A stretch of 64,000 bases of DNA from Geothrix sp. PMB-07 (GTDB lineage Bacteria; Acidobacteriota; Holophagae; Holophagales; Holophagaceae): positions 62,001-126,000 of the forward strand of contig NZ_CP132333.1 in NCBI RefSeq assembly GCF_030758935.1, in the 5' to 3' direction. The position numbers and the translations under genes were made by a program. This document shows, one piece after another, positions 6,043 through 33,956 of the stretch. Within the stretch, counting starts at the first letter, position 1, and the number at the start of each line of letters is the position of its first letter. The notes beneath the pieces were generated by a model. It was not told the origin of the DNA. It did not search any database and saw only the letters and a list, made by a program, of their open reading frames with translations.

Positions 6043-6182
6043 GCGAACTCTGCCGGGTCCGACGGGTACGAATCCTGCAAAATTCGGTTTCTTCGACATG
6101 CCCTTAAAGGGCTCGAATGCCTTTGCCGGTTCCGCACCGGCTGATCCCACGTAACACCCATGACCTCCGGACGGGAGCAAGC
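6043..6182 (+). other. Intergenic leader with two short hairpins
   Basis: The gap holds a 13-base palindrome (GCCCTT-A-AAGGGC at 6100-6112) and a 6-bp stem-loop (GCCGGT at 6125-6130 with ACCGGC at 6136-6141). Neither is followed by a T-run, so terminator function is weakly supported. They could be leader structure for the GT2 gene. I compared the region with the c-di-GMP-I riboswitch by eye and saw no convincing match. Confidence 0.3.
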
Positions 6183-6950
6183 ATGAAAACCGATGTTTCA
6201 GTGGTCATGACGACCGTTTGTCGGGACTCGGTCTACCGGGCCGCAAGGTCTGTCTTTCAGCAGGACTATGAAGGGACGATCCAACTCATTCTTGGTGTCG
6301 ATGTCGAGAAGTTCGGGGACTTCTCCGAAATCATTAGAAACCTGGCCGCGGAATGTCCTCCTCGCCGTGTCTTGACCCCCATCAACCTCGGCTATTCGAC
6401 TTCGGCCCGGCATGGCGGGGTGCACAGCAGCTGGTACGGCGGCTCCTTGCGCACCGCCCTGAGTTTTTTGGCCTCGTCGGAATGGATCGCCTACCTGGAT
6501 GACGACGACTGGTACGAGCCGCAGCACCTTCGCACCCTGCTGGCAGCCGCGCAGGGCAACAGCTGGGCATTTGCCCTGTCGAACTATGCGGATTCAAACG
6601 AAAACAGGATTCTCGGTGTGGACACGATCGAAAGCGTGGGCCCCAATCGCGGCGTGTATCGCGAAAAATTCGGCGGATTTGTGAGGCCATCGGCTTTGAT
6701 GATCAACAAGATCAAACTCTCCCTCATCCTGCACCTGTGGTCGGTGGCTCCCTTTGCCACGGGCGATGGGGAAGACCGGCTGATCTTCAACGAACTCCGG
6801 AAATTCCCCGATTTCGGAGAGACGGGACTTCCAACCGTGAACTGTGCTCTGGATCCGGCGGATGGCATGCATGCGCACCGCCTGGCTTCCTTGTCGGCTC
6901 CTGTGGCCGCTTCTGGCCCCAAGCATCAGTCGCTGCGGAACCAGGCCTAG
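6183..6950 (+). CDS. Family 2 glycosyltransferase
   Basis: The 255-residue product is a GT-A type inverting glycosyltransferase. It opens with the nucleotide-binding strand 'MKTDVSVVMTTVCRD' and carries the metal/nucleotide-sugar motif 'YLDDDDW' at about 104-110. No membrane helix is visible, so it is probably cytoplasmic and adds one sugar to a glycan intermediate. The ATG at 6183 has a GGGAG ribosome-binding site 7 bases upstream; the longer reading from 6117 lacks one. It is the only plus-strand gene of the glycan locus and converges on the next gene, their stop codons sharing the palindrome CTAG at 6947-6950. Donor and acceptor cannot be told from sequence. Confidence 0.9.
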   Translation: MKTDVSVVMTTVCRDSVYRAARSVFQQDYEGTIQLILGVDVEKFGDFSEIIRNLAAECPPRRVLTPINLGYSTSARHGGVHSSWYGGSLRTALSFLASSEWIAYLDDDDWYEPQHLRTLLAAAQGNSWAFALSNYADSNENRILGVDTIESVGPNRGVYREKFGGFVRPSALMINKIKLSLILHLWSVAPFATGDGEDRLIFNELRKFPDFGETGLPTVNCALDPADGMHAHRLASLSAPVAASGPKHQSLRNQA

Positions 6951-7960
6951 GCGTTTTGCCCTTGCCAACTCTGCGCCAGGCGGGAGCCCCAGGTTCCTCG
7001 CAGGCCCTGGATCACCTTTGAATCGGGGCGCACCCAGCTGACCTGCTGGAAGGCGCGGAGGTGTTGCCAAAGATCCGCGGCCTGCTCAACCCACACGATG
7101 GATGGAGGAGTGGCCTGCCCCCTTGGCTTCAGGGCCGCGTCGAGGGAGGCGCGGGCAGAAGCCGGATTCGCCAGCAGGAGCAGCGCCACAGGATCGTCTG
7201 CGGTAAAGGCCTGCACATAGCTGAGCAGGACGGCTTCCCAATCGGCGGACCCCCTATCCGGTTCGAGCAGGAAGGCTTGGGATTGGGGCGTGGGAGTGGT
7301 TCCGGCGACGCCTGGCGCTGTTCCACCGGCAGCATCAGCCAGGGTGTCGTAGGTTCCCAGGGTGGAGGCCCATGCCTGCTTGGCATAGACCGGCCCACTG
7401 CCCGTATAGGTCAACCCGGTGTAATGCTCGGGCATGAAGAAGTGGCTGGGGAGCACGGTGAGGTTGGAATAATTCTCGGCGATCCAGGTTTGAGTGAGGT
7501 AGAGCGGGCCCACGGACTGCCACGCGTCACGATCGGTGACGGTGGGCTGCTTGCGGAGGCCTTCGATCAGGGTGGCGAGAAAGCGCGTGCCGGGAATGGT
7601 TCCGAAATACCCGGCGGCGATCAGCCTGGGGCGGGCCAGTTCGTTTTCCCAGCTGGCGAAGGCTTCGCATTCCAGCAACCAGGCCGGGAGCGGCCGGACA
7701 CAGCAGCTGTCGGCATCCACCAACACGCCGCCCTCTTCATGCAGGATCTCCCAGCGCATCATGTCCGCGACGCCATTCCATTCGCGCTTGGCCATGGCTT
7801 CCATGTGGTGCCCATTGATCCAGCGGCGGCCAGCCAGGTCTTCATTGCCCCAGAGTTTGACTTCCCAGTCGGGGTGGTGATCCACCCAGGTCTGGATGAA
7901 TCGGTTGGGCCGCTTGGATTCATCCCCGACCCAGATGAGGTGGATGATCTTGGGGATCAT
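6947..7960 (-). CDS. DXD-motif glycosyltransferase with shared C-terminal domain
   Basis: The first 200 or so residues match the 'glycosyltransferase sugar-binding region containing DXD motif' family (OCH1/capsular type). The protein opens 'MIPKIIHLIWVG', has 'WNGVADMMRWEILHEEGG' and 'VDADS' with the DXD at about 82-84. Residues about 228-337 form a separate domain ('WEAVLLSYVQAF', 'DPVALLLL', 'SWVRPD') repeated in the three genes upstream. The ATG at 7960 overlaps the stop of the methyltransferase gene (ATGA), so it is the last gene of the operon and translationally coupled. An earlier in-frame ATG at 8278 gives a low-complexity out-of-frame product and was rejected. The sugar specificity is unknown. 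Confidence 0.9.
   Translation of the reverse strand: MIPKIIHLIWVGDESKRPNRFIQTWVDHHPDWEVKLWGNEDLAGRRWINGHHMEAMAKREWNGVADMMRWEILHEEGGVLVDADSCCVRPLPAWLLECEAFASWENELARPRLIAAGYFGTIPGTRFLATLIEGLRKQPTVTDRDAWQSVGPLYLTQTWIAENYSNLTVLPSHFFMPEHYTGLTYTGSGPVYAKQAWASTLGTYDTLADAAGGTAPGVAGTTPTPQSQAFLLEPDRGSADWEAVLLSYVQAFTADDPVALLLLANPASARASLDAALKPRGQATPPSIVWVEQAADLWQHLRAFQQVSWVRPDSKVIQGLRGTWGSRLAQSWQGQNA
6950..7279 (-). repeat. Shared C-terminal domain, copy A
   Basis: This is a 110-residue protein-level repeat at the end of the DXD glycosyltransferase. Landmarks are 'QAFLLEP', 'W..VL..Y..AF', 'DDPVALLLL' and 'VSWV'. It is slightly shorter between the two strands than the other copies. Confidence 0.75.
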
Positions 7961-9141
7961 GCCCTTCCCCGTTGAAGCAAAGCCCGGTTGAACCGGGCAC
8001 CCATGGGCCCATCGAGCGGCGCGTCGGCAGAAGGTCCTGAGGCGACCCACTGCGCGTGATCGTAGTTCCGGAGGGTCTCCAGGAGCTCTTCCGGTTGATC
8101 GACAAGCACGATGTCCGGGAAGGCTTCGATGCCAGCCTGAGTGGCCAGCTCGAGGATGGCCTGCTGAACCGTTTCCAGCGGGTGGCCATGGGGATCGCTT
8201 CCATGCAGAAGCAGAATCAGGGCCACCGGCTCTCCCTGCCGGAAGGTCTCGAAGTAACTCAGGATGACTTCGAGCCATTCATCCCTGTCCCAGGCGGGGT
8301 CGTGGATGAATGCCTCGCGAACCGGCTGGATCTGGGGCCCAAGGGTTTTCAGCCAGAAGGAGCAACCGTTCCTTTCAATGCCACGCAGGGGGCCACCGGT
8401 CCATATCTCATCGAGAATGGAAATCAGTGGCTGGTCATAAATGATGAATTTACACGGTAAAATGATTTCCAGCTTAGGGCCCTGGGCCAAAAGATAACAA
8501 GCTAGACCGTATTGTTCAGAATAATAACGGTTTACCCAATCAGCAGGATAATCATAGGGGAGACAGATATCGTGGAAGTGAACCAGCACACCTGGAGAGA
8601 GCATGGGAAGGATGTCCAGGAAGCTGACCGTCGAATCGGAATTCATAAACATGCGGTGCGAGTTGTCGAAGAACAGAATGTCGCCTTCGCCGAGTAGCGA
8701 AAACACTTCGAGATCAACCTCCTCGCAACGCTTCCGGATGACCTGATCGCAGAGGGCATCGATCTCGGCCCGCGGATCCGGATCAATGGAGATGATTTTG
8801 GTTTTGAGGCCATGGTCTGAGATGGCCTTCCGGGCGAACTTGGTCGAATTTCCGGATCCAACCTCAATGTAATAATTGGGATTGTTTTTTGCGAGAAAGC
8901 AATAGAGTGCCATGCTGTCCAGCGGCGGGATCCATCCGTTCTCCCAGTTGGGTTGAGCGGGGGTGTTGGCCGGAGTGACCGGAATTTGCTTGAAATGAGG
9001 AATGAGCGATCGAATCTCTTGGAGCCACTTCGCGTACACCTCGCGGTTTTGATTGATGATGGCGTACAGGTGACGATTGGGCTTCTCGACGGGGTACCTG
9101 GGCTTGGAAACGAAGGGATAATCCAAAGTGATTTGATACAT
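7957..9141 (-). CDS. Class I SAM-dependent methyltransferase with shared C-terminal domain
   Basis: The N-terminal 270 or so residues form a methyltransferase fold with the SAM-binding motif 'YIEVGSGNST' at about 91-100, an acidic strand 'IISIDPDP', and 'GDILFFDNSH' and 'VHFHDI'. This is the Methyltransf_24 type found in glycan clusters. The last 119 residues are copy B of the shared domain. The methyltransferase part is clearly AT-richer than its neighbours (for example 8400-9140) while the tail is GC-rich, which suggests separate origins. I chose ATG 9141 for its typical N-terminus. ATG 9177 is possible and neither has a strong ribosome-binding site. The next gene overlaps its stop codon. 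Confidence 0.85.
   Translation of the reverse strand: MYQITLDYPFVSKPRYPVEKPNRHLYAIINQNREVYAKWLQEIRSLIPHFKQIPVTPANTPAQPNWENGWIPPLDSMALYCFLAKNNPNYYIEVGSGNSTKFARKAISDHGLKTKIISIDPDPRAEIDALCDQVIRKRCEEVDLEVFSLLGEGDILFFDNSHRMFMNSDSTVSFLDILPMLSPGVLVHFHDICLPYDYPADWVNRYYSEQYGLACYLLAQGPKLEIILPCKFIIYDQPLISILDEIWTGGPLRGIERNGCSFWLKTLGPQIQPVREAFIHDPAWDRDEWLEVILSYFETFRQGEPVALILLLHGSDPHGHPLETVQQAILELATQAGIEAFPDIVLVDQPEELLETLRNYDHAQWVASGPSADAPLDGPMGARFNRALLQRGRA
7960..8316 (-). repeat. Shared C-terminal domain, copy B
   Basis: A 119-residue copy at the end of the methyltransferase. Landmarks are 'EAFIHDPAW', 'EWLEVILSYFETF', 'EPVALILL', 'FPDIVLVDQPEELLETLRNY' and 'AQWV'. Confidence 0.8.
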
Positions 9142-9228
9142 AACGGGCGGCGCTCCAGGGGCTTCAATGCAATTCATTCAGACATAGGTGGTTATAACAA
9201 ATGAGGCTTTTCCTCTGTAGAAGTTTAT

Positions 9229-12200
9229 CTAGGCGTGATTTTTCAGGGATTGAGAGAGTTGTTGGCCCAGGATACCCCTCAGGCTTTCGACATTCCACTG
9301 ACCAGAGCGTACCCAGCTGATGTGGGGGTAGGGCTTGATCTGCTCGAGGATCTCTTCGGGCCGATCCACGAGGACCACTTTGGGAAAGGCTTCCTGGTTC
9401 ATGCTGGCCATCACTTCGAGTACGGATTGTCCCGCCTCCGCCGGGTCGATCTGTCCGGGTTGGGTAGGATCGATGAGGATGATCAGGGCCACGGGATCGT
9501 CTGGGCTGAATGCGGTGAGGTAGCCGTGCAGCACTTCGACCCATTCATAGGCGTTCCACTCGGGCTCGAACAGGAAGGCCTGAGCGGCGGGTTGGGACGC
9601 GTGGAAATCTGACGCGCCCGGGGCTGGATGAAGGCGCGCGAGGGCCTGCTTGAAAAAGCGCCGGTAGTCCTCCATGCGCGCGCGCCAATCGAAATGGCCG
9701 CAGACGGATTCCCGGGCCCGGGCACCCAGCCTTTGGCGCAGCGCCGGATCATCCCGCAGACGAAGAATGGCCTGGGAGATGGCCTCGAAATCACGGGGCA
9801 CGATGAGAGCACTGAGACCGTCTTCCAGGAATTCAGGCACCGTGCCCACGTCGGTGGTCACGATGGCCCGGGCCATGGAAGCTGCCTCCATCAAGGAGTT
9901 GTTGTGCCCTTCGCTGGCCGATGTGCAGATGTAGACATCGATTGACTCATAGAATCCCCGCATCTCGTCGAGGGTCAGCATGCGGTCGCTGTAGCCGCAG
10001 ATCTCAAGCTCGACGCCTGGCAGGGTGGCCAGGGGGGCGATGAAGGCGTCATAACCTTTGATGGCCGCAGCCCGGTTGCCGGCCCAGCCCACCCGGAGCT
10101 TGCCCGGCGTGGCCTGGGGGGCATGCCGTGAGGAGAAGAACTCCGTGTCCACGCCATGGGGAAGGGCCAGCGCGGCGGGAAGCTCCGGCTGGAAGATGCT
10201 CAGCAGGCGCTGCGACACCACGTAGACGCCGCCCTGGTAGAGCTGGTTCAGATGCTGCGCCAGCGCGGAAGGCTCCCAGCCATCCCAGCTCGTATGGGAG
10301 CGGATGCCCGCCACCCACTTGGCTGGAGTGCGCACATGTTCCGGATTGACCATGTGCCACTCCAGGGGGTGGATGAGGTCATAGCGCGCCTCGTCTACGG
10401 GCTGGCCCCGGAATTTGATGTCCATGCCGTAGGCGATGTCGATGTCGAACTCGTCCGCCAGGCGTTCCTGCATCACGTGGGCGTGGCGGTCGAAGATCCA
10501 GTTGGGCACGTCCGCGATGATGAGGAGACGGGGCCGGCGGGGTGGTGGCCCCGGGGGATTCAGGGCCAGCCACTGGGACCCGATGATGCCCGCGGGGGAA
10601 TGGGGCCACTGCGCTACGAGCTGTCTCAGCCCCCGGCGGGCGGCGCGCAAATCGCCCCTTTCCGCGGCTTTTGTCACGAGATCAGCGGCCTGCACGGGCG
10701 TTTCGGCCCTTTCCTCGGCCGGGGCTTTCGAATGGATTTCAGCGGGCTGCGCCTTCGACGGAAGGGGCAGATCCCGGTGCTGGCGCAGCCATTCTTCCAG
10801 GAAGAGCAGCAGCCAGAGGGTCGGTGTGGCCGCACCCTCCAGCAGGGTCTTCATGACCGTTGGGCGGAAGTACTCTCTCAGGGAAGAATCCTCGCCCAGC
10901 AAGCGCGCCATCAACTTGCTGTAGGCCTCTCCGCCAGGGGCGAGCCACCGCGCCACAGGCATGGCGAAGCCCATCTTGGGGCGGTTGAGGAACGCATCGG
11001 GGAAGAAGCGACGGGCCACCCGTTTCAGCATGGCCTTCCGGTTCCAGGAACCGTCTCCGGCTCGGATCATGGAAAAGGAGGAAGGCAGTTTCGCGGCCTC
11101 TTCGATCACCCGGAGATCCACGAAGGGCGTCCGGACTTCGAGCCCGTGCATCATGCTGGCGATGTCGACCTTGGTGAGGATGTCGAAAGGCAGGTAGGTG
11201 TTGATGTCCATGTACTGCACGCGGGCCAGGCCGGAAAACGATTGGGACTCCGACCACAGCTGCTCGAAAAGCTCCTGGCGCGGCTGGAAGGCGGACTGGA
11301 ATTCGGGCCGCCACAGGGCGGACCGGACGGGCCCATCGGTGTAGTGGATGCACCGGATCCAGTCGTAGACGTTGGAGGTCGGGTTGGACATCCAGGAGGC
11401 CTGGGTTCCATAGCCCGCGAACAGCTCATCGGCGCCATCACCCGAGAGCACCATGGGCACGCTGGCCCGGGCCAGCTTGCACACGTGCCAGGTGGGCAGG
11501 GCCGAGCTGTCGCCGAAGGGTTCGCCGTAGTGCTGCACCAGGCTTGGCAGGAGCGACAGTGCATCGCTGCCCATTTCGCCCCGCGTGTGGATCGTTGCGC
11601 AGGTTTTGGCGGCGAAGGCCGCATAGCTGGTTTCGTCGAATTCCGATTCCTTGAACCCGATGCTGAAGGTGCGCACGCGGTCGCTGAGGAGTTCGCTCAT
11701 TTCGGCCACGACAAGGCTGGAATCCACTCCGCCGGACAGGAAGGCGCCGAAGGGCACATCGGACATCAGGTGGGCATCCACCGATTCCTTCACCACGGTG
11801 GCAATGCGCTCCTCCCAGTCGGCGGCCGATACGCCGGGTTCGGGGTCGAAGCGCATGGACCAGTAGCGGCGGGGCTTTTCCACCGCTCCGTCGAAACCCA
11901 CCCGCAGGCGGTGCGCCGGAGGCAGCTTCCGGATCTGGCGATAGGCGCTGCTCGGGGAGGGGATGTATTGCAGCCAGAGGTACTGGTCGATGGCGGTCAA
12001 ATCCAGGGACCCGTTGAAGCCTGGTGTGAGCAGCAGCGGGCTGATCTCGGAGCCGAAGGAGATGGCCTCCTCGGTCTCGCACCAGACCAGGGGCTTGATG
12101 CCGAAGTGATCCCGAGCCAGGAAGACGCAGCCCTGGCGATAATCCGCAATGCCAAAGGCGAACATGCCCCGGAAGCGATCCACGCAGCAGTCGCCCCACT

Positions 12201-12522
12201 CTTCCCAGGCGTGGATGACCACCTCGGTGTCCGAGCGGGTCTTGAACTGGTGCCCGCGGCTCTGGAGCTGGGTCATCAGTTCCTTGTAGTTGTAGATCTC
12301 GCCGTTGAACGTGATCCAGACCGACCCGTCCTCGTTGCTCATGGGCTGGTGCCCGCCGGTGGGATCGATGATGGAGAGGCGGCGATGGCCAAGCCCCACC
12401 GGGCCTTCGATGCGAACGCCTTCACCGTCTGGTCCGCGGTGGGCGATCCGGCGGGTCATGTTCCGGAGGATGTCCTCGGGGTAGATTCCGCCCTTGGTGA
12501 TCAGGCCGACGATTCCACACAT
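9229..12522 (-). CDS. Asparagine synthase-type amidotransferase fused to GT4 glycosyltransferase and shared domain
   Basis: A 1097-residue fusion. Residues 1-590 are a complete glutamine-dependent asparagine synthase: 'MCGIVG' gives the Cys nucleophile of the glutaminase after Met removal, 'RIAHRGPDG' and 'NGEIYN' follow, and the ATP-pyrophosphatase motif 'LSGGVDSS' lies near 263-270. A TPR-like linker follows. Residues about 675-980 are a GT4 glycosyltransferase ('PHGVDTEFF', 'SASEGHNNSLMEAASMARAIV'). Residues 981-1097 are copy C of the shared domain. The ATG at 12522 has a GGAG site. In glycan loci such synthases usually amidate uronic acids, so a coupled amidation and sugar-transfer role is inferred. 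The intact motifs indicate active glutaminase and synthase sites. Confidence 0.92.
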   Translation of the reverse strand: MCGIVGLITKGGIYPEDILRNMTRRIAHRGPDGEGVRIEGPVGLGHRRLSIIDPTGGHQPMSNEDGSVWITFNGEIYNYKELMTQLQSRGHQFKTRSDTEVVIHAWEEWGDCCVDRFRGMFAFGIADYRQGCVFLARDHFGIKPLVWCETEEAISFGSEISPLLLTPGFNGSLDLTAIDQYLWLQYIPSPSSAYRQIRKLPPAHRLRVGFDGAVEKPRRYWSMRFDPEPGVSAADWEERIATVVKESVDAHLMSDVPFGAFLSGGVDSSLVVAEMSELLSDRVRTFSIGFKESEFDETSYAAFAAKTCATIHTRGEMGSDALSLLPSLVQHYGEPFGDSSALPTWHVCKLARASVPMVLSGDGADELFAGYGTQASWMSNPTSNVYDWIRCIHYTDGPVRSALWRPEFQSAFQPRQELFEQLWSESQSFSGLARVQYMDINTYLPFDILTKVDIASMMHGLEVRTPFVDLRVIEEAAKLPSSFSMIRAGDGSWNRKAMLKRVARRFFPDAFLNRPKMGFAMPVARWLAPGGEAYSKLMARLLGEDSSLREYFRPTVMKTLLEGAATPTLWLLLFLEEWLRQHRDLPLPSKAQPAEIHSKAPAEERAETPVQAADLVTKAAERGDLRAARRGLRQLVAQWPHSPAGIIGSQWLALNPPGPPPRRPRLLIIADVPNWIFDRHAHVMQERLADEFDIDIAYGMDIKFRGQPVDEARYDLIHPLEWHMVNPEHVRTPAKWVAGIRSHTSWDGWEPSALAQHLNQLYQGGVYVVSQRLLSIFQPELPAALALPHGVDTEFFSSRHAPQATPGKLRVGWAGNRAAAIKGYDAFIAPLATLPGVELEICGYSDRMLTLDEMRGFYESIDVYICTSASEGHNNSLMEAASMARAIVTTDVGTVPEFLEDGLSALIVPRDFEAISQAILRLRDDPALRQRLGARARESVCGHFDWRARMEDYRRFFKQALARLHPAPGASDFHASQPAAQAFLFEPEWNAYEWVEVLHGYLTAFSPDDPVALIILIDPTQPGQIDPAEAGQSVLEVMASMNQEAFPKVVLVDRPEEILEQIKPYPHISWVRSGQWNVESLRGILGQQLSQSLKNHA
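9232..9582 (-). repeat. Shared C-terminal domain, copy C
   Basis: A 117-residue copy at the end of the AsnB-GT4 fusion. Landmarks are 'QAFLFEPEW', 'EWVEVLHGYLTAF', 'DDPVALIILIDP', 'FPKVVLVDRPEEILEQI' and 'ISWVR'. Confidence 0.82.
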
Positions 12523-12523
12523 A

Positions 12524-13690
12524 TCAGCGCTCCGCCTTCCCGGCTTCGGTCAGCACACGGTCCATGGTCGCCACCAGGACCTGTTGAACGGCCTGGGGGG
12601 AGTGGCAGGTTCGGGCGCGCTGGAAGGCCCGGGAGGCCAGGCCATCCAGCCAGGCAGAATCCCGCCGCGCCCGGTTCAGCAAAGCCAGGAACCGGTCCAC
12701 GTCGCCGTGGGCGCTGGCCGCGCAACCGTGATCGGCGCACCAGCCATCCGGATCGGCGCTGAGAAAGAGGGTGGGGCAGCCCACCATGGCGCCCTGGAGC
12801 ATCAGGTTTGGAAAGCCTTCCAGGGGGCTCGTGTTGACCATGGCGCGGGAGGAAACCATGAGTGAGCGTAGCTCCTCCTGGCTGCCGAGACGGTCTGACA
12901 GGATCACATTCGGGGGCAGGTTGGAGCGCCAGGGCTCTGGAAGGGCCTGGAGCCCTCCGTTGCTGACCATGCGGAACGTGGCGTGTTCCATGTCCCGCGC
13001 CAGCTCGAAGAGGATGTCGGGGTTTTTGTCGGCGAGGGGACGGCCCACCCACAGGAAATCGAAGGCTGGATTCCCACTCCGGGCCGGTGCGTCGCGCTCC
13101 TGTTCCCAGCCCGCTGGAATGGGATTGGGCACCAGGGTGGCGATCCTGCCCACCTGGCGGTACAGCCGATCCTTCTGCCACTGGGTCTGGGCGAGCACCT
13201 CGGTGGCCCGGTGCAGGGCCTCCCAGGCGTGGAATTCCGGAACGAGGTATTCGTTCAGGATCATCGATCCGTTGAAGACCGAGTCGCGCAGGCTCTGGTC
13301 CGAAGCGATGCCCACCACGGCGGGAAGCCCCAGCTGCCGGGCCTGCCGGGTCATCTCGTAGGACACCTCGTTCGCGCCCAGCGACACGAAGCAGTCGGCC
13401 TGAAAGCCTGCGTACAGGTCTGTGATTTCGGGATTCGCCTGGAGGCTGTGGAAGGCGTGACGGGGGATCTGAAACAGGCCCAGGCCCTCCTTTGAGGTTT
13501 CAGGGAAGGGCAGATCCGGTTCGTTCAGCACGGCAAAGGAAACCCTGAAGCGGCCTGAGTCGATCAGCATCCGGGCGAAGGTCAGGGCGCGCACTTCGGC
13601 CCCGCCAAACGGCATCTTCGCGCCAGGGGTCAACAGACCCAGGGCGTTGATTTGGACGAAACAGATGCTGGGTTTGCCGGGTGCAGTCAT
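12524..13690 (-). CDS. Family 4 glycosyltransferase
   Basis: The 388-residue product is a GT-B retaining glycosyltransferase. It has an N-terminal acceptor domain with the glycine-rich loop 'MPFGGAEVRAL', the inter-domain strand 'FDFLWVGRPLADKNPD', and the donor-binding region 'SPLEGFPNLMLQGAMVGCP', which corresponds to the E-x7-E region although the second Glu is replaced. No signal or membrane segment is present. The ATG at 13690 follows an AAGG ribosome-binding site, and the gene ends one base before the AsnB-GT4 start, showing tight coupling. Unlike its neighbours it lacks the shared C-terminal domain. Donor sugar unknown. Confidence 0.88.
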   Translation of the reverse strand: MTAPGKPSICFVQINALGLLTPGAKMPFGGAEVRALTFARMLIDSGRFRVSFAVLNEPDLPFPETSKEGLGLFQIPRHAFHSLQANPEITDLYAGFQADCFVSLGANEVSYEMTRQARQLGLPAVVGIASDQSLRDSVFNGSMILNEYLVPEFHAWEALHRATEVLAQTQWQKDRLYRQVGRIATLVPNPIPAGWEQERDAPARSGNPAFDFLWVGRPLADKNPDILFELARDMEHATFRMVSNGGLQALPEPWRSNLPPNVILSDRLGSQEELRSLMVSSRAMVNTSPLEGFPNLMLQGAMVGCPTLFLSADPDGWCADHGCAASAHGDVDRFLALLNRARRDSAWLDGLASRAFQRARTCHSPQAVQQVLVATMDRVLTEAGKAER

Positions 13691-13750
13691 GGGGCGTACC
13701 TTGGCGCAGATAGACCCTTTCCGTCAAAAGGACGATGGAGCCCTCAGGAG

Positions 13751-16222
13751 TTAGCAACCTTCGCGCCACCATGCGGTTCGCAACTGGTCGAAGCAGGCCT
13801 GCAAGGCATCTGGGGGGATGGGGTCCTTGGGAAGCCACGTGGCCCAGGGGTGATCCGGCAATTGATCCAGGAGCTCGGAGGGGTGGTCGAGGAGGATCAC
13901 CACAGGGAATGTCTCTCGGCCCGTTTCGGCCAGCACCTGCATCACGGCCTCCCCCACCTCGGCCGGAGGCGGTGAAGACACCAGGCCGCCTGGATCCGGC
14001 ACGAGGATCAGGGCCACGGGATCGCTGGGCGCGAAGGTCTCAAGGTAGGCCCGCAGCGTTCGGGTCCATCCGGGGTTCTCCCAGCGTGGCGCATACAGGA
14101 GGGCCGTTGAAGTGGGTCTGGGGCCTGCTGGGTGGCCGGTGTCGCAGGCGGCTCGGAACCAGGGGCCTGTGAAAGGGGAACAGAGGTCTTCGCCAGGTGC
14201 CGGGGCAGGGGGAACCCAGTGGAGGCACTGAAAGGCTCGGAGGCTTGTCAGCAGGTCGTCGGACCTTTCGAGCAGCGCAACGACGGGTGCCGCGCCTGGT
14301 GTCGCGGCACCGATGGCTGAGGCTAAGGCCTGCCCGGCGGCCTCTGCCGTGGGTGTCCCAGGTAGGCTTTCGTCGTGGAGGAGAAAGAGGGCCACCGGTT
14401 CCTCCGGATGGAAGGCGTTCAGATAGCCATTCAGTGCAGCCTCCCAAGAAGCGGAGGCCCAGTCAGGGGATAGCAGGAAGGCATCGCCGGTCGGGGGTGC
14501 TTCCGCCGTGCGCATCTGGAAAACCACGTCCAGATGGGTCGCGAGGAGTGCTTCATCGGTTGGGAAGATCCGAAGCATGGCCTCCAGCCCCTCCCTGGCG
14601 GCATGGAGGTTGTTCTCAGCTAGGGCCTTCCGCGTGGTTTGATCCAGCTCCTCCAGGGTGCGCTTCCTGAGGAAGAGCATCAGGTTGGGGGTTTCCATGA
14701 TGAGCAGGAAGGTGTTCCAGAACTCGCGGGAATCCTTGATCAGCCTGAGCAGGTAGTGTGTCAGCCCGCCCCGTTCCGCCAGCACGTACTCGACCTGATA
14801 GCGTTCGGCGAGGGCGTGGAAATCCCCGCCCGGATAGGGGTAGTTGCCACAGGCTTCGAGCAGCTCGTCCAAAGGCAGCAGCCTTGTGTCGATCATGGCC
14901 GCGGTCAGGACGGGATGGGGCGCACGGTGCAGGGCCTGCCAGTAGACGTTGCCCAGCGGCAGCAAAGGGCCCGGCGGAAGCTGGCGAAGGCGGTCAAAGA
15001 GGGCTTCGGATTGGTGGTAGTCCTCCTCGACCGGGCGCAGGGCATTCAGGTAGTCGCGCACGAAATAGACCGCGGACAGGACGGAGTAGGCGCCGAGCAC
15101 CACGAGCAGCCAGGGCGCCGCAGTCCAGGCACCGAGCGTGAACAGCAGCAGGGAAGGAAGGGTGATGGCCTCGAGGTACCGCTCGCCTTCACCCAGGAAC
15201 AACAGGCCCTTCTGCTTGGTGAGCAGGGCCCAGAGGACGCCGCATCCTGCCCAGACGAGCAGGAATCGCGCGTCGCCGTGAACCAGGTGCTTCCAGGGTG
15301 TGAGAAGCGGAAAGAGGACGATCTGGGGAAAGACCGTGACGAGCAGATGCAGGTAGTGCCTCGAGTGAAAGTACCAATCGAGGAAGGCGTGGAACTCCCC
15401 GCGGACCAGCTGCCCCACGGCCGTTCGGAGGCCTTCCAGGTAGCTTCGGAACGTCAGGATGTGCGGGTAAAGGAAGATTTTTTGGAGATGGGTGAAGTAG
15501 ACGGTGGAATGCGCAAGGCGGCCTCGGAGAATGTGCAGCGTCTTTCCGCCGGTTATCAGGGCCGAGGTCAGGAGGCAGGTGGCCATCAAGAGCAGGTGAA
15601 GCGGCGATATGAGCAGAGTGAAACCCAGCCCGAAGAGCAGAAACACCTGAGTGGAGAAGGTGGCCGTAAAGAGGAGCACGGCCCCGGCGAGCACGCTCAC
15701 CCCGAGCCAGGCGGGGTGGCCAGTGGTCCAACCCACATAGGCGGATAGGATGTGGGTGAGGAACAGGGCCTGCCCAGGGACCCGCGCACTGCCGTTGTAG
15801 GCTCGGGGGCCGGAGCCGATGCGCAGGAGGGCAGGGGCGAAGGCGTAAAGGCTGGCCGTGGTCAAAGCGACCCAAGGCGCGTTTGAGGCACCACCCCGCG
15901 TGGCGAACCACGAGCTGGCGGCGTAGACAATGACGAGAATCAGAGTGTCGAAAACGGCCCCCGTCGCGCGTTCCACCCAGGCCCGGGCGGAGGAAGGGAA
16001 GAGCGCGAGAAGGAAGTGGTAGCCGCAGGGATAGGTGTATTCGTTCTTCAGCAGCACGCCCGGGAGGGTGGGGGGAAGGCGGAACCGCCGCGATCGAATG
16101 AGCTCTGCACAGTACAGGTGATAGTAGGTATCCGACACGATGGCATTCTGCCGGAAGCACCGGGGGAGGAACCGGATGAGAAAGGTCACCACGGCCAGAA
16201 GCGCGAGAAGGCTCAAAGGCAT
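13751..16222 (-). CDS. Polytopic GT-C-like membrane protein with two shared C-terminal domains
   Basis: The 823-residue product starts with about 420 residues of transmembrane helices ('MPLSLLALLAVVTFLIRF' to 'LLVVLGAYSVLSAVYFV'). The first loop carries 'SDTYYHLYCAELI', reminiscent of the acidic catalytic motif of GT-C transferases such as PMT or oligosaccharyltransferases. A soluble region (about 430-575) follows, then two tandem copies of the shared domain (about 580-705 and 706-823). This is probably a lipid-sugar-dependent glycosyltransferase or glycan-assembly membrane protein. The ATG at 16222 has a GGAGCG site. Exact activity cannot be assigned. Confidence 0.85.
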   Translation of the reverse strand: MPLSLLALLAVVTFLIRFLPRCFRQNAIVSDTYYHLYCAELIRSRRFRLPPTLPGVLLKNEYTYPCGYHFLLALFPSSARAWVERATGAVFDTLILVIVYAASSWFATRGGASNAPWVALTTASLYAFAPALLRIGSGPRAYNGSARVPGQALFLTHILSAYVGWTTGHPAWLGVSVLAGAVLLFTATFSTQVFLLFGLGFTLLISPLHLLLMATCLLTSALITGGKTLHILRGRLAHSTVYFTHLQKIFLYPHILTFRSYLEGLRTAVGQLVRGEFHAFLDWYFHSRHYLHLLVTVFPQIVLFPLLTPWKHLVHGDARFLLVWAGCGVLWALLTKQKGLLFLGEGERYLEAITLPSLLLFTLGAWTAAPWLLVVLGAYSVLSAVYFVRDYLNALRPVEEDYHQSEALFDRLRQLPPGPLLPLGNVYWQALHRAPHPVLTAAMIDTRLLPLDELLEACGNYPYPGGDFHALAERYQVEYVLAERGGLTHYLLRLIKDSREFWNTFLLIMETPNLMLFLRKRTLEELDQTTRKALAENNLHAAREGLEAMLRIFPTDEALLATHLDVVFQMRTAEAPPTGDAFLLSPDWASASWEAALNGYLNAFHPEEPVALFLLHDESLPGTPTAEAAGQALASAIGAATPGAAPVVALLERSDDLLTSLRAFQCLHWVPPAPAPGEDLCSPFTGPWFRAACDTGHPAGPRPTSTALLYAPRWENPGWTRTLRAYLETFAPSDPVALILVPDPGGLVSSPPPAEVGEAVMQVLAETGRETFPVVILLDHPSELLDQLPDHPWATWLPKDPIPPDALQACFDQLRTAWWREGC
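13754..14107 (-). repeat. Shared C-terminal domain, copy D2
   Basis: A 118-residue second tandem copy at the very end of the membrane protein. Landmarks are 'GWTRTLRAYLETF', 'SDPVALILVPDP', 'FPVVILLDHPSELLDQL' and 'ATWLP'. Confidence 0.8.
14108..14485 (-). repeat. Shared C-terminal domain, copy D1
   Basis: A 126-residue first tandem copy in the membrane protein, including a short linker. Landmarks are 'DAFLLSPDW', 'SWEAALNGYLNAF', 'EEPVALFLLHD', 'SDDLLTSLRAF' and 'LHWVP'. It is the most diverged in its second half. Confidence 0.75.
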
Positions 16223-16283: not shown

Positions 16284-17177
16284 TCATCCTGTGGCTCCCT
16301 CAAATACGTATCCGGGCTGGCCGCGGAATTCACAGCACTCCCCATCGGCACCCAGGGTCCACGCCGCTCTCACACGCAGGGGGCGGTCTGCGCATTGCAC
16401 GAGCAGGCCGTTGCCATTGAGGCACGCCAGCAGGGAGCCAGGCTGGATCTCAGAAGGAGGCTCTGGGGTCCACTCGCTGGGACCGATGAACACGGGGATG
16501 CCTTGAAGGAGGGTGAAGGCGCCCCGGGTGTACGGCGGTGCCTGGGACCGGATGAAGTTGTGGATGGCCAGGGCCGACCGGTTCCAGTCGATCCTGCCAT
16601 CCGCCAAGGTCCGCTTGCGAAACCTGGTTGCCTTGGATTCATCCTGGGGGGTGAAGGAAAGTTCGCCCCGGCCGAATTGTGCGAGCGATTCCGGAATCCA
16701 CGCAGGCAACAGGGCATCGGCCTTCTGAAACACGTCGTTGATGGTTTCATCGAGGCCCACCTGGAAGGCACGCTGGCATAGGATGGGGCCTGCGTCTGGA
16801 ACGCGGCCCGCGCGGTGCAAGGTGTAGCCCACCTGCGATTCACCATGGATGAGGGCCCAGGTGAAAGCGTGCAGGCCCCGGTAGGCGGGCAGCAGCGAAT
16901 TGTGGCAGTTGAGGAAGAGCTGCCGGTCCAGCAGCTCGGGTTCGATGAGCTCCGGATAGGACAGCAACAGCACACAGTCGACGGGGGCGCGCGTCAGGAG
17001 CAGGGCGGGTGCCGTGTCTCCGGCGCAGCAGGGAACCACTCCCGCCGCCGTGCGAAGGCCCGCCAGACAGGCGTTATCGGTGCAGAGAACATGGCCGAGC
17101 TCGACACCGGCACGGCGGATGGCCGCCACGACGGCCGCTGCGGGTCCGCGCCCGGAGGTCCAAACCCCGAACCTCAC
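16284..17177 (-). CDS. Formyltransferase of the methionyl-tRNA formyltransferase family (probable sugar N-formyltransferase)
   Basis: The 297-residue product has the formyltransferase catalytic triad region: 'NCHNSLLPAYRGLHAFTWAL' supplies Asn and His, and 'VPDAGPIL' supplies the Asp. A C-terminal OB-like half follows. In glycan loci this fold uses N10-formyl-tetrahydrofolate to formylate an amino sugar, as in VioF, so that role is inferred rather than tRNA formylation. The GTG at 17177 overlaps the stop of the upstream GNAT gene (GTGA). The longer reading from 17276 adds 33 Arg-rich residues that are shadow sequence. It is one of two formyltransferase genes in the operon. Confidence 0.87.
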   Translation of the reverse strand: MRFGVWTSGRGPAAAVVAAIRRAGVELGHVLCTDNACLAGLRTAAGVVPCCAGDTAPALLLTRAPVDCVLLLSYPELIEPELLDRQLFLNCHNSLLPAYRGLHAFTWALIHGESQVGYTLHRAGRVPDAGPILCQRAFQVGLDETINDVFQKADALLPAWIPESLAQFGRGELSFTPQDESKATRFRKRTLADGRIDWNRSALAIHNFIRSQAPPYTRGAFTLLQGIPVFIGPSEWTPEPPSEIQPGSLLACLNGNGLLVQCADRPLRVRAAWTLGADGECCEFRGQPGYVFEGATG

Positions 17178-18142
17178 AGCGCCACCCCGAAGGTGTCGCG
17201 GAAATACCCTGAGGCGCCGAAGCTTTCCTTGAACTCGCTGAGGCTGGCGTTGACGACCATCTGGCTCGAGGAGCACCCAAGGTCGAGGTGGGTCCGTCCC
17301 GTCTCAAGGCACCACTGGATGGCATCGAGGGTGAGGAGCGTGAGGGCACTGGTATGCGCGTATTCCCGTGGACAGCTGGGATAGAAGGAGGTGATGCAGG
17401 TAGGACTGCAAAGGAAGACGTTGGCGGCCACGGGCACCCCTTCCAGCCAGGCGAGATCGACCTTGAGAAAGTTGGGATCGATGGTCCGGATGGCCCTCAA
17501 GTCGGCTTCTGAATGGGTGATGCCCTCACGTCCCAGCTGCTGCTTGGCCCGGACCACCAGCGCGTAGGCCGTTTCGAGAGGCGCGTTCCGCTGGAGGGTC
17601 ACTCCAAGCCTCCGCGCTTTGCGGGCCTGCGTCCGAGTGGATGAGTCGAGAGGGAGGAAGGGGTCGCTCACCCCCCCGAGATTGATGGCGTGGGTGATCT
17701 CGCGGTTCCTCAAGGTGAACCCTCGGCTGCAGAGGGCGAACTCTGCAGCATTGGTGTAGGACCTCGCATAGCAGGCAGGGGGCGTGGTGATCAGGCACTC
17801 ATGAACGCCCTGGTCCCGAAGGTGTTCCATCAATTGATCCACCAGCTCCAGCGCGTATTTGAGCCGCAGCTTGGGGCCGTGCACGAATCCACCGATGCTT
17901 GCGCCGAAGGGTGACCGTGCGACCTTCCGACCCTCCTCCAGAAAGATGCCCAGCGGGAGGACGGCGAAGAGGGTGCTTCCCTTCCGCCAGACCAGGTGAT
18001 GGGCGGTCTCCTTGAATCGAGCACTGTGGTATCCCAGGAAATCCTGCCGGTGGAAGAGTGAACCGTTGACAGCGCCTGCCACGAAGGCATCCCAGGCCTG
18101 TGCCTCGCCGGGCGCCAGGCGGCTAAGCGACAGGCCGGCCAT
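17174..18142 (-). CDS. FemAB/GNAT-like acyl- or aminoacyl-transferase
   Basis: The 322-residue product resembles the FemAB/BioF2-like double-GNAT fold. It has an N-terminal 'GSLFHRQDFLGYHSARF' segment, a central basic stretch 'TRTQARKARRLGVTLQ' and a C-terminal 'EGVPVAANVFLCS...YPSCPREYAHTSALTLL' segment typical of this group. Such proteins transfer acyl or aminoacyl groups to amino groups of peptidoglycan or sugars. The ATG at 18142 has a GGAGG ribosome-binding site, and a CCGGG/CCCGG hairpin lies in the short upstream gap. Its place between a deacetylase and a formyltransferase suggests modification of an amino sugar. The exact donor is unknown. Confidence 0.8.
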   Translation of the reverse strand: MAGLSLSRLAPGEAQAWDAFVAGAVNGSLFHRQDFLGYHSARFKETAHHLVWRKGSTLFAVLPLGIFLEEGRKVARSPFGASIGGFVHGPKLRLKYALELVDQLMEHLRDQGVHECLITTPPACYARSYTNAAEFALCSRGFTLRNREITHAINLGGVSDPFLPLDSSTRTQARKARRLGVTLQRNAPLETAYALVVRAKQQLGREGITHSEADLRAIRTIDPNFLKVDLAWLEGVPVAANVFLCSPTCITSFYPSCPREYAHTSALTLLTLDAIQWCLETGRTHLDLGCSSSQMVVNASLSEFKESFGASGYFRDTFGVAL

Positions 18143-18190: not shown

Positions 18191-18904
18191 TCATGGGCAC
18201 GACTCCTCGAATGACCCCTCGGTCAATGCACCAAGGCACGTCGGTCGCAGATCCAGATGGGCAGCCTCCTTCAGAAGGGAGAGGAGAAGGTCGCGAACGC
18301 CGGGAACAGTGGAGCGGTTGCGGTGATCCAGCAGGGCCTTGGGATTCTGGAAGTGGGGGCGTGCGGTTTCATAGCGGTCGAGGGTTTCGGTGTTCAGGTA
18401 GATGTGAATGGGGTGGAAGTTGAGGATGTTCAGCCCCCGGCCGAGATCCAGACCCAGGGCATCGAAGGGCCTGCCGTAGAGGCAGTGCACATCGTCCTCC
18501 CAGTTGAAGGGGATGCGGAGCAGTCCGTTCCAGAGCCGCACCGGCGAGAGCGAACGAGCATAGGGGAGCAAGGTGTTGGCCTCGTAGGCCAGGCCCTGCT
18601 CTCGGAAGAGGGCGGCGAGACGGGAACTGGAGGTCAGGGAATGGGAACGCACCCCGATTGCGCCGGGGTAGTGGTGCTGGAGCTCTGCGAGAATGCTGGA
18701 AGCATGGCCGGTTCCGGCGCCCTCCAGAAGCGGGTTGAAGTTGGGGTGCAGGCCCACTTCGATTCCGGAGGCGGTCCGTTGAAGGAGCGGCGTGGCATGC
18801 GTGGCGAATACCGTGCAGAGCACCCCGTGGTGGGCGAAAAGCTCGAGGGTGTCGGCCAGCACGGCATCTGGGGCCCAATCGAGGTCGCAGGTAAAGGCGA
18901 TCAC
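18191..18904 (-). CDS. Polysaccharide deacetylase-like protein
   Basis: The 237-residue product begins 'VIAFTCDLDWAPDAVL', matching the metal-binding first motif of NodB-type deacetylases with a compact Asp pair. It also has 'EVGLHPNFNP' as a histidine motif and 'ILNFHPIHIYLN' as the late histidine motif. It probably removes an N-acetyl group from a sugar intermediate, leaving an amine for the formyltransferases or acyltransferase encoded next to it. The GTG at 18904 overlaps the stop of the upstream formyltransferase gene. The motifs are non-classical, so substrate and activity are inferred. Confidence 0.82.
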   Translation of the reverse strand: MIAFTCDLDWAPDAVLADTLELFAHHGVLCTVFATHATPLLQRTASGIEVGLHPNFNPLLEGAGTGHASSILAELQHHYPGAIGVRSHSLTSSSRLAALFREQGLAYEANTLLPYARSLSPVRLWNGLLRIPFNWEDDVHCLYGRPFDALGLDLGRGLNILNFHPIHIYLNTETLDRYETARPHFQNPKALLDHRNRSTVPGVRDLLLSLLKEAAHLDLRPTCLGALTEGSFEESCP

Positions 18905-19674
18905 GGCACCACCTCTGCATCCCACAGGATGACCTTTCGGCCTTCGATAAAGGTGAAGGCCCCTGGGTAGGGACGGGTCTGCGCGCGGATGAAGTTCCGG
19001 ATCCGCCGGGAATCCCAGGTCCAGTCGATGAGCCCATCCTCCGGGGAGCGCTGGGGCATCCGGAAGGCCTCCTCTTCCCGCTGGACGATGCGCAGTGCGG
19101 TCCCTTCCTTGATTCGAGGAAGTGCTTCGGAAAGGAGATCGAGAGACGCGGCTTCAGCGGACTTCAAGACCTCCTTGATGGTGTCACCCTCGCCGATCTC
19201 GAAGGACTTTTGGAGGATCAGGTCGCCGTTATCGACGCCTTCTCCGAAATGAAACAGGCTTACCCCGGTCTCACGTTCTCCTTGGATCATCGCCCAGACC
19301 AGCGGCGCTCCCCCGCGGTACTTGGGCAAGAGCGAGGCGTGGATGCCGATGCACCCCAGAGGTGCGAGATCCCGCATGGATTTCGGGATCATGTGGTACC
19401 AGCCAATGCAGATGATTAGATCCGGGGCCATGTGAGTCAGGTGGGGTTGGCATTCCCGCATCCCGTGCGCGGCTTCAACCACGGGAATCCCGTGTTGGGC
19501 GGCCAGCCCATGGAAGTCGGCGTGCAGGACATTGACCACCGGCTTCGAGGAATAGGAGATGTTGAATGCGGCGGGAAGGGTGAAGATGCCCACTATCTCG
19601 CCCAGGCCCTGGTCAAGGATGTGGGCGCAGCAGCGCCGCCCCAGTTCGGAAGCTCCGAAAAAGGCGATTCTCAT
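18901..19674 (-). CDS. Formyltransferase family protein (probable sugar N-formyltransferase)
   Basis: The 257-residue product has a Rossmann-type start 'MRIAFFGASELGRRC', the catalytic segment 'GIHASLLPKYRGGAPLVWAM' and 'FGEGVDNGDLI' containing the catalytic Asp, then a short C-terminal domain. It is shorter than tRNA formyltransferases (about 310 residues), which fits the sugar-modifying group. The ATG at 19674 overlaps the stop of the methyltransferase gene, and its own stop overlaps the deacetylase start, so the three genes are translationally coupled. Likely role: N-formylation of an amino sugar made by this operon. Confidence 0.88.
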   Translation of the reverse strand: MRIAFFGASELGRRCCAHILDQGLGEIVGIFTLPAAFNISYSSKPVVNVLHADFHGLAAQHGIPVVEAAHGMRECQPHLTHMAPDLIICIGWYHMIPKSMRDLAPLGCIGIHASLLPKYRGGAPLVWAMIQGERETGVSLFHFGEGVDNGDLILQKSFEIGEGDTIKEVLKSAEAASLDLLSEALPRIKEGTALRIVQREEEAFRMPQRSPEDGLIDWTWDSRRIRNFIRAQTRPYPGAFTFIEGRKVILWDAEVVP

Positions 19675-21830: not shown

Positions 21831-23711
21831 CTAGGGCATGAAGGTCTTGAGCCACCATTCGAAACAGAGGAATGACCATATCAGGAGGCGGCGATTCGCC
21901 TGGCCGTTGAAATGACCGTTCATCAGTTCCTGGGCGGCGCTGGGCTGGATGTAATCGTAGATGCGCGCCTTGCGGCTGAAGAGGAGTGATCTCACGTAGT
22001 CGATGCTCTCTCCCTTGAACCAGCTGGCATCGGGCGCGGAGAACCCCTGCTTGACGCCGTTGGCATACGCATCGGGAACATAGCGGGCGAAGGCCTTGCG
22101 GAGAAGGATCTTGCCGTCGCTGGAGGGATCCAGAAAGCGCCGCGATTTCGGGCCCAGTTCATTCTCGTTGATGCCGACCACTTCCTTGAGGTCCCGCAGC
22201 TTGTGCCGCACGGGCAAGCGCATGGCGAAATCCACCAGATCGTTGTCCAGGAATGGCACCCGCGTTTCCAGGCCATGGGCCATGCTCAACTTGTCTTCCA
22301 CGACCAGGAGGCCATGCAGGAAGGTGCGTGCTTCCAGGTACAGCGATTGGTTGACGTAATCTTCTGGTGTGTGCAGCGGGTTGGGGCGATCCGCCAGGAT
22401 GCCTCCAAAAATGTCCTTGCAGGGGTGTGACTGGATGGCCGGTTGGAGATGCCCCTGGTAGAAGGACGGTTTCAGGCTGTCGGGAATGAGGCGTTGCCAG
22501 TAGCGGTAGTACTTATCCGCGTAGTGCTCAGGTCCGTCGTTCACGACCGCCCGGTAGTAGCGCCACGGGTAGCCCGCGAACAGCTCATCGCCCCCGGCGC
22601 CCGAGAGCACGACCTTGACGAACTTGCTGGCGAGCCGGGCCACATAGTAGTTGGGGTAGCTCTGGCCGACGCGAGGATCTTCCATGTGCCGGATGAGGTC
22701 GGGCATCACCCGTTCCATATCGCCGGCCTTCAACACCACCTCGTAGTGCTCGGTGCGGAAACGGCTGGAGAGGAATTCGGCCTTGGCGCGCTCGTCGAAG
22801 CCCAGTTCCAGGCCTGAAGCCGAGGATAGGTCGAAGCCTCCGGTGAAGGATTTCAGATTCGGAAAGTTTCGGGCGGCGATGCAGGTGATGGACCCGGAAT
22901 CCATGCCGCCGCTCAGGTAGGCCCCCACTTCCACATCGCTGACCAGCTGCCGGTTCACGGCCTGCTCAAAGAGGCGTTCGAGCTCTTCGAGATACTCGCG
23001 TTCATCCTTCAATCCGGCATCTTCCTCGAAGGCGAAATCCCAATAGCGCTCCACGCGTGGGGGGGTGGTGCTGTCCAGGTCCAGGGTCATCGTGTGGGCG
23101 GCGGGCAAGAGGCGGATGCCTTCGAAGAGCGTGAGATCCGAGAAGACGTTCTGGAAGGAGAAGTACTCGTTCAGGGCCGGGACACACACCCTGACCCCGA
23201 CATCTGGATGGCGGAGAATGGCCTTGATCTCCGAGGCGAACACCAGTGTGCCGTCCTGGAACCAGTAGTAGAGGGGCTTGATGCCGTAGCGGTCCCGGGC
23301 CAGGAAGAGCCGGTTCCGCTGGGTGTCCCAGATGGCGAAGGCGAACATGCCGTTGAAGCGGTGAACACAGTCCGCGCCCCATTCGCGGTAGGCGGCGAGG
23401 ACCACCTCGGAATCACTGCGGGAACGGAAGGCGTGGCCCCGGGCCTCCAGCTCCACCCGAAGGTTCTGGAAGTTGTAGATCTCGCCGTTGTAGGTGAGGA
23501 CGCAGGAGCCATCGCGGGTCTGCATGGGCTGGTGCGCGAGGGGCGAGAGGTCGAGGATGGCCAGCCTGCGGTGGCCAAGCCCGATGAAGGAATGGATCCA
23601 GGCGCCTTCACCATCAGGGCCCCGGTGGGCGATGGCATCGGTCATGCTCTTGAGCGCCGCCACGGCCACGGAGCGGCCGTCGGTATTGAAGATCCCCGCG
23701 ATCCCGCACAT
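21831..23711 (-). CDS. asnB: Asparagine synthase (glutamine-hydrolysing) type amidotransferase
   Basis: The 626-residue product is a full-length AsnB-like enzyme. 'MCGIAGIFN' provides the N-terminal Cys, with 'AIAHRGPDGEG', 'TYNGEIYNF' and the synthetase P-loop 'YLSGGMDSGS'. The ATG at 23711 exposes the Cys after Met removal; the seven-residue longer reading would destroy it. It lies between epimerase and aminotransferase genes, like amidotransferases of Pseudomonas O-antigen loci that convert uronic acids to uronamides. I infer that role rather than free asparagine synthesis. It lacks the GT4 and shared domains of the other AsnB-like protein at 9229-12522. Confidence 0.92.
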   Translation of the reverse strand: MCGIAGIFNTDGRSVAVAALKSMTDAIAHRGPDGEGAWIHSFIGLGHRRLAILDLSPLAHQPMQTRDGSCVLTYNGEIYNFQNLRVELEARGHAFRSRSDSEVVLAAYREWGADCVHRFNGMFAFAIWDTQRNRLFLARDRYGIKPLYYWFQDGTLVFASEIKAILRHPDVGVRVCVPALNEYFSFQNVFSDLTLFEGIRLLPAAHTMTLDLDSTTPPRVERYWDFAFEEDAGLKDEREYLEELERLFEQAVNRQLVSDVEVGAYLSGGMDSGSITCIAARNFPNLKSFTGGFDLSSASGLELGFDERAKAEFLSSRFRTEHYEVVLKAGDMERVMPDLIRHMEDPRVGQSYPNYYVARLASKFVKVVLSGAGGDELFAGYPWRYYRAVVNDGPEHYADKYYRYWQRLIPDSLKPSFYQGHLQPAIQSHPCKDIFGGILADRPNPLHTPEDYVNQSLYLEARTFLHGLLVVEDKLSMAHGLETRVPFLDNDLVDFAMRLPVRHKLRDLKEVVGINENELGPKSRRFLDPSSDGKILLRKAFARYVPDAYANGVKQGFSAPDASWFKGESIDYVRSLLFSRKARIYDYIQPSAAQELMNGHFNGQANRRLLIWSFLCFEWWLKTFMP

Positions 23712-23715
23712 GGAT

Positions 23716-33118: not shown

Positions 33119-33180
33119 ATTTCGAATTTTTAAACATCTTATAATTAATAATTTACAAGTTGCCGAGAAAAAAAGTTAAA
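33119..33180 (+). promoter_or_regulatory. AT-rich flagellin promoter region
   Basis: This short stretch is very AT-rich in a GC-rich genome. It holds a perfect sigma70-type -10 (TATAAT, 33140-33145) and a sigma28-like -10 (GCCGAGAA, 33162-33169; consensus GCCGATAA). The TTGACG at 33113-33118 is 21 bases from TATAAT, too far for a normal pair. Which sigma factor is used cannot be decided. Confidence 0.5.
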
Positions 33181-33183
33181 GGT

Positions 33184-33203
33184 TTTCGGAGGCATTTCCG
33201 AAA
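33184..33203 (+). promoter_or_regulatory. Leader hairpin 5' of flagellin
   Basis: TTTCGGA (33184-33190) pairs with TCCGAAA (33197-33203) around a 6-base loop. If transcription starts in the AT-rich block this is near the 5' end of the flagellin mRNA and could protect it from decay. Confidence 0.4.
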
Positions 33204-33235
33204 GAGGGAGGGTCGGGGATTTCCCCTACACAACC

Positions 33236-33276
33236 TGGCAGCACGGATGCTGCCAAACAACATCACGGAGGATGTT
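33236..33276 (+). promoter_or_regulatory. Twin GGA-loop hairpins over the flagellin ribosome-binding site (candidate CsrA target)
   Basis: Hairpin 1 is TGGCAGC/GCTGCCA (33236-33242 and 33249-33255) with loop ACGGAT. Hairpin 2 is AACATC/GATGTT (33259-33264 and 33271-33276) with loop ACGGAG, which is also the Shine-Dalgarno; the ATG follows immediately. The two GGA triplets are 22 bases apart. CsrA family proteins bind GGA in hairpin loops and bridge paired sites of about this spacing. The function is inferred from this geometry. Confidence 0.6.
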
Positions 33277-33879: not shown

Positions 33880-33897
33880 GTAGGCAATCTCTAGCTT

Positions 33898-33930: not shown

Positions 33931-33956
33931 TCGTCTGAGTTTGGAAAGGAGGGGTT

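Follow-up and report, generated by a model that had tools for sequence, protein, structure and literature searches.

The glycan pathways of bacteria tend to be described enzyme by enzyme, and little is known about how their successive steps are kept together. Non-catalytic domains of the GT-B fold are already known, and two proteins of the streptococcal accessory Sec system, Asp1 and GtfB, have a glycosyltransferase-like fold and a role in protein glycosylation or export without catalysis. The flagellin O-glycosyltransferase FlmG of Caulobacter is modular and is targeted by a separate N-terminal flagellin-binding domain (PMC7591256). In flagellin glycosylation islands, for example in Geobacillus, the glycan genes adjoin the flagellin genes (PMC5109656).

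The locus described here lies in a window of 64,000 nucleotides from the soil bacterium Geothrix sp. PMB-07 (NZ_CP132333.1, positions 62,001 to 126,000). As in flagellin glycosylation islands, its glycan genes adjoin flagellin at a site with conserved flanks; unlike the known islands, it shows a shared tail on several enzymes. A TPR-GT41 protein lies beside the flagellin gene and may be read as FlmG-like by analogy, although the targeting domain of FlmG is N-terminal and is not a GT-B-derived tail. Asp1 and GtfB also differ from the tails in being whole proteins rather than half-domain tails. What appears new is a half-domain that recurs as the tail of mutually unrelated enzymes in a single pathway, with no named family in the libraries that were searched.

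Results

Five copies of one domain end four different proteins

The window contains five copies of a domain of about 115 residues, all on the minus strand (Table 1). Pairwise blastp comparisons of the five copies gave 26-43% identity with E-values from 2e-8 to 7e-28, and a profile search of the whole 4.24-Mb single-contig genome matched these five copies only. The first-pass annotation had described a shared domain at these positions, at the ends of four different proteins, and both the blastp comparisons and the profile search bear this out. The columns that are invariant among the five are, in the numbering of the AsnB-GT4 copy, P4, A8, P13, W20, Y27, F31, P36, V37, A38, L39, P73, W96 and L107. 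The same annotation had placed the end of the domain at a final WV, which is too early: the domain runs for about 25 further residues, through the last helix of the AlphaFold2 model, and in the tails of relatives the end follows the pattern L.G..G.RFA.AR.

Table 1. Coordinates within the window of the tailed genes, the tail copies and neighboring features.
Feature	Coordinates	Strand	Basis and remarks
GT2 gene	6117-6950	+	Without tail
GT32-like DXD glycosyltransferase (PF04488, Gly_transf_sug), 337 aa	6947-7960	-	Pfam E 2.6e-7; ATG at 7960
Tail copy 1	6950-7288	-	C-terminus of GT32-like protein; blastp to other copies; profile E 1.8e-35
Methyltransf_24 protein, 406 aa	7957-9177	-	Pfam E 9.7e-12
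Tail copy 2	7960-8325	-	Methyltransferase C-terminus; blastp; profile E 4.5e-45
AsnB amidotransferase-GT4 fusion, 1,097 aa	9229-12522	-	Asn_synthase E 5e-78, GATase_7 E 1e-45, Glyco_trans_1_4 E 5e-14
Tail copy 3	9232-9591	-	AsnB-GT4 C-terminus; blastp; profile E 7e-46; copy modelled by AlphaFold2, pLDDT 92.9
GT4-like protein	12524-13690	-	Weak Pfam GT4; same gene run, without tail
Multi-spanning membrane protein, 823 aa	13751-16222	-	GT-C-like by about 9 predicted spans and D-x-Y-Y-H-L loop only
Tail copy 5	13754-14116	-	Second of tandem pair, membrane protein; blastp; profile E 4e-38
Tail copy 4	14114-14491	-	First of tandem pair, membrane protein; blastp; profile E 3e-37
Formyltransferase	16287-17276	-	Formyl_trans_N and Formyl_trans_C
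Second formyltransferase-like frame	18904-19674	-	
Second AsnB-type amidotransferase	21831-23732	-	
GT4 and methyltransferase domain fusion, 1,242 aa	26582-30307	+	
TPR-GT41 protein	31284-32930	-	Glyco_transf_41 E 3e-62; TPRs
Flagellin	33160-33876	+	Pfam Flagellin_C
flaG	33957-34343	+	Pfam FlaG
fliD	34377-36350	+	Pfam FliD_N/FliD_C
fliS	36417-36839	+	Pfam FliS

Pfam upheld the earlier identification of the GT32-like, methyltransferase and AsnB-GT4 hosts, and the AsnB-GT4 fusion also scored above the cut-off of TIGR01536 (NCBIfam). The fourth host had been called GT-C-like; its predicted spans and loop motif agree with that name, but neither Pfam, NCBIfam nor a PDB sequence search gave a match to this protein. 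The GT32-like gene and the methyltransferase gene upstream of it overlap by ATGA. The GT4-like protein encoded in the same run gave no match to the tail profile.

The tail resembles the first half of a GT4 donor domain

AlphaFold2 modelling based on 22 tails predicted the order β-α-β-α-β-α-β-α with high confidence (pLDDT 92.9, pTM 0.87), in agreement with the half-Rossmann unit proposed earlier; with 115-125 residues and four strands, the tail does not amount to two complete Rossmann domains. With four input sequences, the full-length model of the GT32 protein was of poor quality (pLDDT 54.6, pTM 0.38), and its tail part repeats the same order of strands and helices. A structure search with the tail returned generic Rossmann-like folds (best Z 6.3), with several glycosyltransferases and Asp1 among the best and none of them outstanding. 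Asp1 ranked second, its residues 320-488 matching at Z 6.1 over 101 aligned residues with an rmsd of 3.8, a level to be read against the Z 5-6 of unrelated Rossmann-like folds. Foldseek found nothing at E <= 0.001 among the PDB and viral models; its top viral rows were glycosyltransferase-like yet generic (E 1.4e-3, TM 0.50).

Comparison of sequences was more specific as to origin. A tail-only profile built from the 22 tails matched the donor domain of a GT4 protein from a different family (G192) with 25.1 bits, for a whole-genome E of 1.7e-6 for the locus, and a second GT4 donor half (G051) with 17.0 bits, and in several further genomes weaker matches fell, in the same register, on the first halves of GT4 donor domains. 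The best of 10,302 decoys reached 6.7 bits among the 1,717 reversed sequences and 8.2 bits among the 8,585 shuffled ones. Profile-profile comparison of the tails with GT4 gave E-values from 2e-5 to 5e-5. In the alignment, GT4 FLATFDWSLRKGWDVLVEAYARAFTAADDVCLVL corresponds to FLLEPDWS..-W.EVLL.YL.AF.PGDPVALVL of the tail, and the pattern FL..-W-S..W..LL.AY..AF...D.V.L.L is common to the tail and the GT4 donor domain (PF00534 Glycos_transf_1 / PF20706 GT4-conflict). On that donor domain the tail extends from strand 1 to the helix after the EGFG / E-x7-E loop, with strands and helices in the order expected of a GT-B donor first half and the profile in register; the last strands of the donor are missing.

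The tail differs from GT4 in being half a donor domain that lacks the acceptor domain, and none of the 22 aligned tails has the R-K-G that follows strand 1 or the first Glu of E-x7-E, in line with the earlier remark that catalytic motifs are lacking. Taken together, the in-register GT4 profile matches and the loss of these residues make it very probable, as judged from sequence, that the tail is what is left of a GT4 (GT-B) donor domain cut down to its first half and no longer catalytic. The first-pass annotation had raised a GT-B donor remnant as a possibility; the distance of the two best GT4 matches from the decoys now gives this statistical support, and such a remnant is likely. The annotation had also assigned the domain to no named family, which the profile and Pfam checks support: among the 22 tails, neither Pfam nor NCBIfam gave a match above its curated cut-off, Pfam called GT4 on none of them, and there were only scattered, single-member chance matches with E 0.014 or weaker. 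A PDB sequence search with the tail profile returned chance matches such as methane monooxygenase, none of them a glycosyltransferase.

The core of the tail is conserved and its surface diverges

The most informative columns of the tail are nearly all core-type residues (W, Y, F, P, V, L); in the AsnB-GT4 copy, by the numbering of the AlphaFold2 model, they are W17, Y24, P33, F28, V34, P10, P70, F6, W93 and L36. A P-V-x-L core is invariant in all 22 copies. Loops at the Rossmann ligand-binding edge average about 1.6 bits, as against about 2.5 at the opposite edge, which argues against a retained active site; a P-[DE]-W after strand 1 and a D after strand 3 are fairly conserved at the ligand-binding edge. 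By sequence, no conserved surface patch was evident.

Tails change much faster than the enzymes that carry them. Among the GT32 orthologues of three relatives (G043, G065 and G066), all of them tailed, identity is 68-77% in the catalytic part and 31-48% in the tail, and between two AsnB-GT4 fusions the values are 78% for AsnB, 71% for GT4, 45% for the linker and 39% for the tail. Close pairs (G008 and G018, and two copies in G069) keep 92-94% identity in the tail, so that it is not simply decaying. A tree of the tails does not match the host enzymes, requiring 11 changes for 7 host groups, and is mostly unresolved. In it, the AsnB-GT4 tail of G043 groups with the methyltransferase tail of the present genome (G000; support 93/85) and not with its AsnB-GT4 tail, with the alternative not rejected (p-AU 0.14); AU p-values for grouping the tails by genome or by host ranged from 0.07 to 0.6. 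There is a hint of tails going with gene position and not with host.

Tails occur on several glycan enzymes of Holophagaceae

By profile search, tails are present in 8 of the 47 genomes from the genus, in 13 of the 77 from the Holophagaceae and in 13 of the 93 from the class; among 396 genomes across the phylum, the sole match outside Holophagaceae was the GT4 donor domain in G192. A contig scan with a short pattern found five loci, all in Geothrix, Holophagaceae or unclassified Acidobacteria MAGs; the scan misses known carriers, so its result is no evidence of absence from other phyla. A tblastn search of plasmids found no tail, and a limited literature search found no publication on such a tail.

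Across the carriers the hosts are GT32, Methyltransf_24, AsnB-GT4, membrane, GT2, tandem GT4 and GT41-like proteins, the last of these (L035) assigned by reading of the sequence. The linker that precedes the tail is often short, variable and rich in Ala, Pro and Thr. The C-terminal position claimed earlier is true of the four proteins in the window and fails in one relative (L037), where the tail is flanked by GT2 domains within a 1,944-aa multi-GT2 frame, 251 residues before its end.

Six of the 13 carrier genomes, of which two are single-contig and one consists of two contigs, encode a single tailed protein, in every case a multidomain protein with GT4. In genomes with several tails, these are in adjacent or near-adjacent genes, except in G069, where they are on separate contigs. 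The start of the tailed GT32 gene overlaps another tailed gene by ATGA in four of four genomes, and the partner enzyme is always different from GT32 (a methyltransferase, an AsnB-GT4 fusion and, twice, a GT2). The membrane part of the GT-C-like protein has no homologue in the stretches around the tails of the 12 other genomes, where only its C-terminal part finds matches.

Some tailed loci lie beside flagellin genes

The flagellin-flaG-fliD-fliS genes (33160-36839, plus strand) form the far border of the glycan island, a context that the first-pass annotation had missed. The flagellin frame is short and divergent, with Flagellin_C above the cut-off and Flagellin_N below it (22.8 against 26.6 bits). 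Tails lie beside flagellin-flaG-fliD-fliS in 4 of the 13 carrier genomes (the present genome, G043, G008 and G018), and in each of these four the glycan genes stand next to the flagellin genes at a conserved variable site. At the same site, with the same flanks on both sides, G008 (L033) and G018 (L032) have a single triple-GT4 protein with a tail (1,351 aa) in place of the long cluster, and G043 has a larger cluster. From this position, with its conserved flanks, the locus in the present genome probably serves as an island for flagellin glycosylation.

As assembled, the remaining nine genomes have their tails elsewhere or on separate contigs, away from flagellin genes, which indicates that the tail is a feature of glycan loci at large and that flagellin is not its universal acceptor. 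In several of these nine, tails are near MutL genes, recognized by their N-terminal sequence, or near PEGA/TPR/HEAT genes; MutL-like frames occur near tailed genes in L031, L034 and L037. A short protein of the type GEGKIGC...VPVYY, whose copy in L036 has no Pfam match, recurs near tailed genes at the sites away from flagellin, together with PEGA/TPR genes (L030, L031, L034, L036, L040 and L041).

Discussion

We tentatively favor, at somewhat less than an even chance, a GT-B-derived accessory tail that lost its donor site and was copied onto glycan enzymes as an interaction or targeting module. The tail would have arisen from the first half of a GT4 donor domain, from strand 1 to the helix that follows the E-x7-E loop, would have lost its donor-binding residues, and would then have been copied onto the C-termini of surface- or flagellar-glycan enzymes in Holophagaceae. 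As a protein-interaction or targeting module, it might join sequential enzymes or take them to a common acceptor, and the adjacency of tailed genes and their ATGA overlaps fit such a role. In this genome the acceptor would probably be flagellin, given that the island abuts flagellin-flaG-fliD-fliS and holds the TPR-GT41 (FlmG-like) enzyme, whose own acceptor is by analogy probably flagellin. Rapid change of the surface with a preserved core is what may be expected of a tail that tracks a variable partner. Tail-to-tail docking between different enzymes is not the general role in view of the six genomes with one tailed protein, in which self-association or docking on another protein can still be accommodated. 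Against this reading, the GT4 matches are modest, with no Pfam GT4 call on any tail and no glycosyltransferase in the PDB profile search, the structural matches are at the level common to Rossmann-like folds, the sequences show no conserved surface patch, and in nine carrier genomes the tails do not adjoin flagellin as assembled.

Part of the same evidence could be read differently. If the tail were a structural cap that packs on, stabilizes or solubilizes the preceding enzyme and binds nothing else, conservation mainly of the hydrophobic core, fast divergence of the surface relative to the enzyme and the existence of single-tail genomes would all be accounted for. We nevertheless think a cap unlikely, since several folds with no relation to one another precede the same tail, often with a short variable linker in between, which is unlike a fitted cap, and since a confident fold is predicted for the tail alone. 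The tail could instead be a lectin- or nucleotide-like domain that concentrates substrate through a residual affinity for a sugar nucleotide, a lipid-linked sugar or a glycan, in keeping with its descent from a sugar-nucleotide-binding half domain and with the P-[DE]-W and D positions. The loss of R-K-G and the first Glu from every tail, the lower average conservation of the ligand edge and the missing second half of the donor site make residual binding quite unlikely.

The first-pass annotation had proposed that soluble enzymes dock through their tails onto the tandem tails of the GT-C-like protein, forming a membrane-bound assembly line, and the presence of tandem tails on a membrane protein, together with the tails of three enzymes encoded in the same run, speaks for such docking. 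We consider it very unlikely, because the 12 other genomes have no homologue of the GT-C-like protein around their tails and six genomes have only one tailed protein. Known GT-C enzymes have a periplasmic C-terminal domain, and a C-terminus so placed, on a roughly estimated topology, would put the tandem tails across the membrane from the enzymes that use SAM and nucleotide sugars. Finally, genes of a recombining glycan island could have been fused and deleted time and again, leaving truncated GT4 ends on their neighbors as a nearly neutral residue; fast divergence of the tail and a tree that departs from the host enzymes, including the grouping of the G043 AsnB-GT4 tail, would be compatible with this. 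Open frames, a core retained across four genera and the invariant P-V-x-L point to purifying selection, however, and render a mere residue improbable.

If the preferred reading of an interaction or targeting module is taken further, the tail might act within one bacterial family as a portable zip code, a decayed glycosyltransferase half that brings any enzyme carrying it to a shared acceptor (here flagellin) or to other tagged enzymes. This extension is speculative and on balance doubtful, yet if true it would mean that new glycans could arise through exchange of the catalytic domains that precede an unchanging tail. A non-catalytic tail common to the enzymes of a pathway would be a sign of their physical co-assembly or common targeting, could help to find further members by sequence and would clearly exemplify an enzyme domain that has become an adaptor.

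The glycan cluster holds further genes besides those with tails. The GT2 gene, whose product keeps 69% identity in G043, and the tailed GT32 gene are convergent, and their stop codons overlap. The second AsnB-type protein has Met-Cys-Gly-Ile, as has the AsnB-GT4 fusion, so that the amidotransferase Cys is kept in both, and the two formyltransferase-type frames suggest N-formylated amino sugars. The fusion of GT4 and methyltransferase domains lies between the tail cluster and flagellin.
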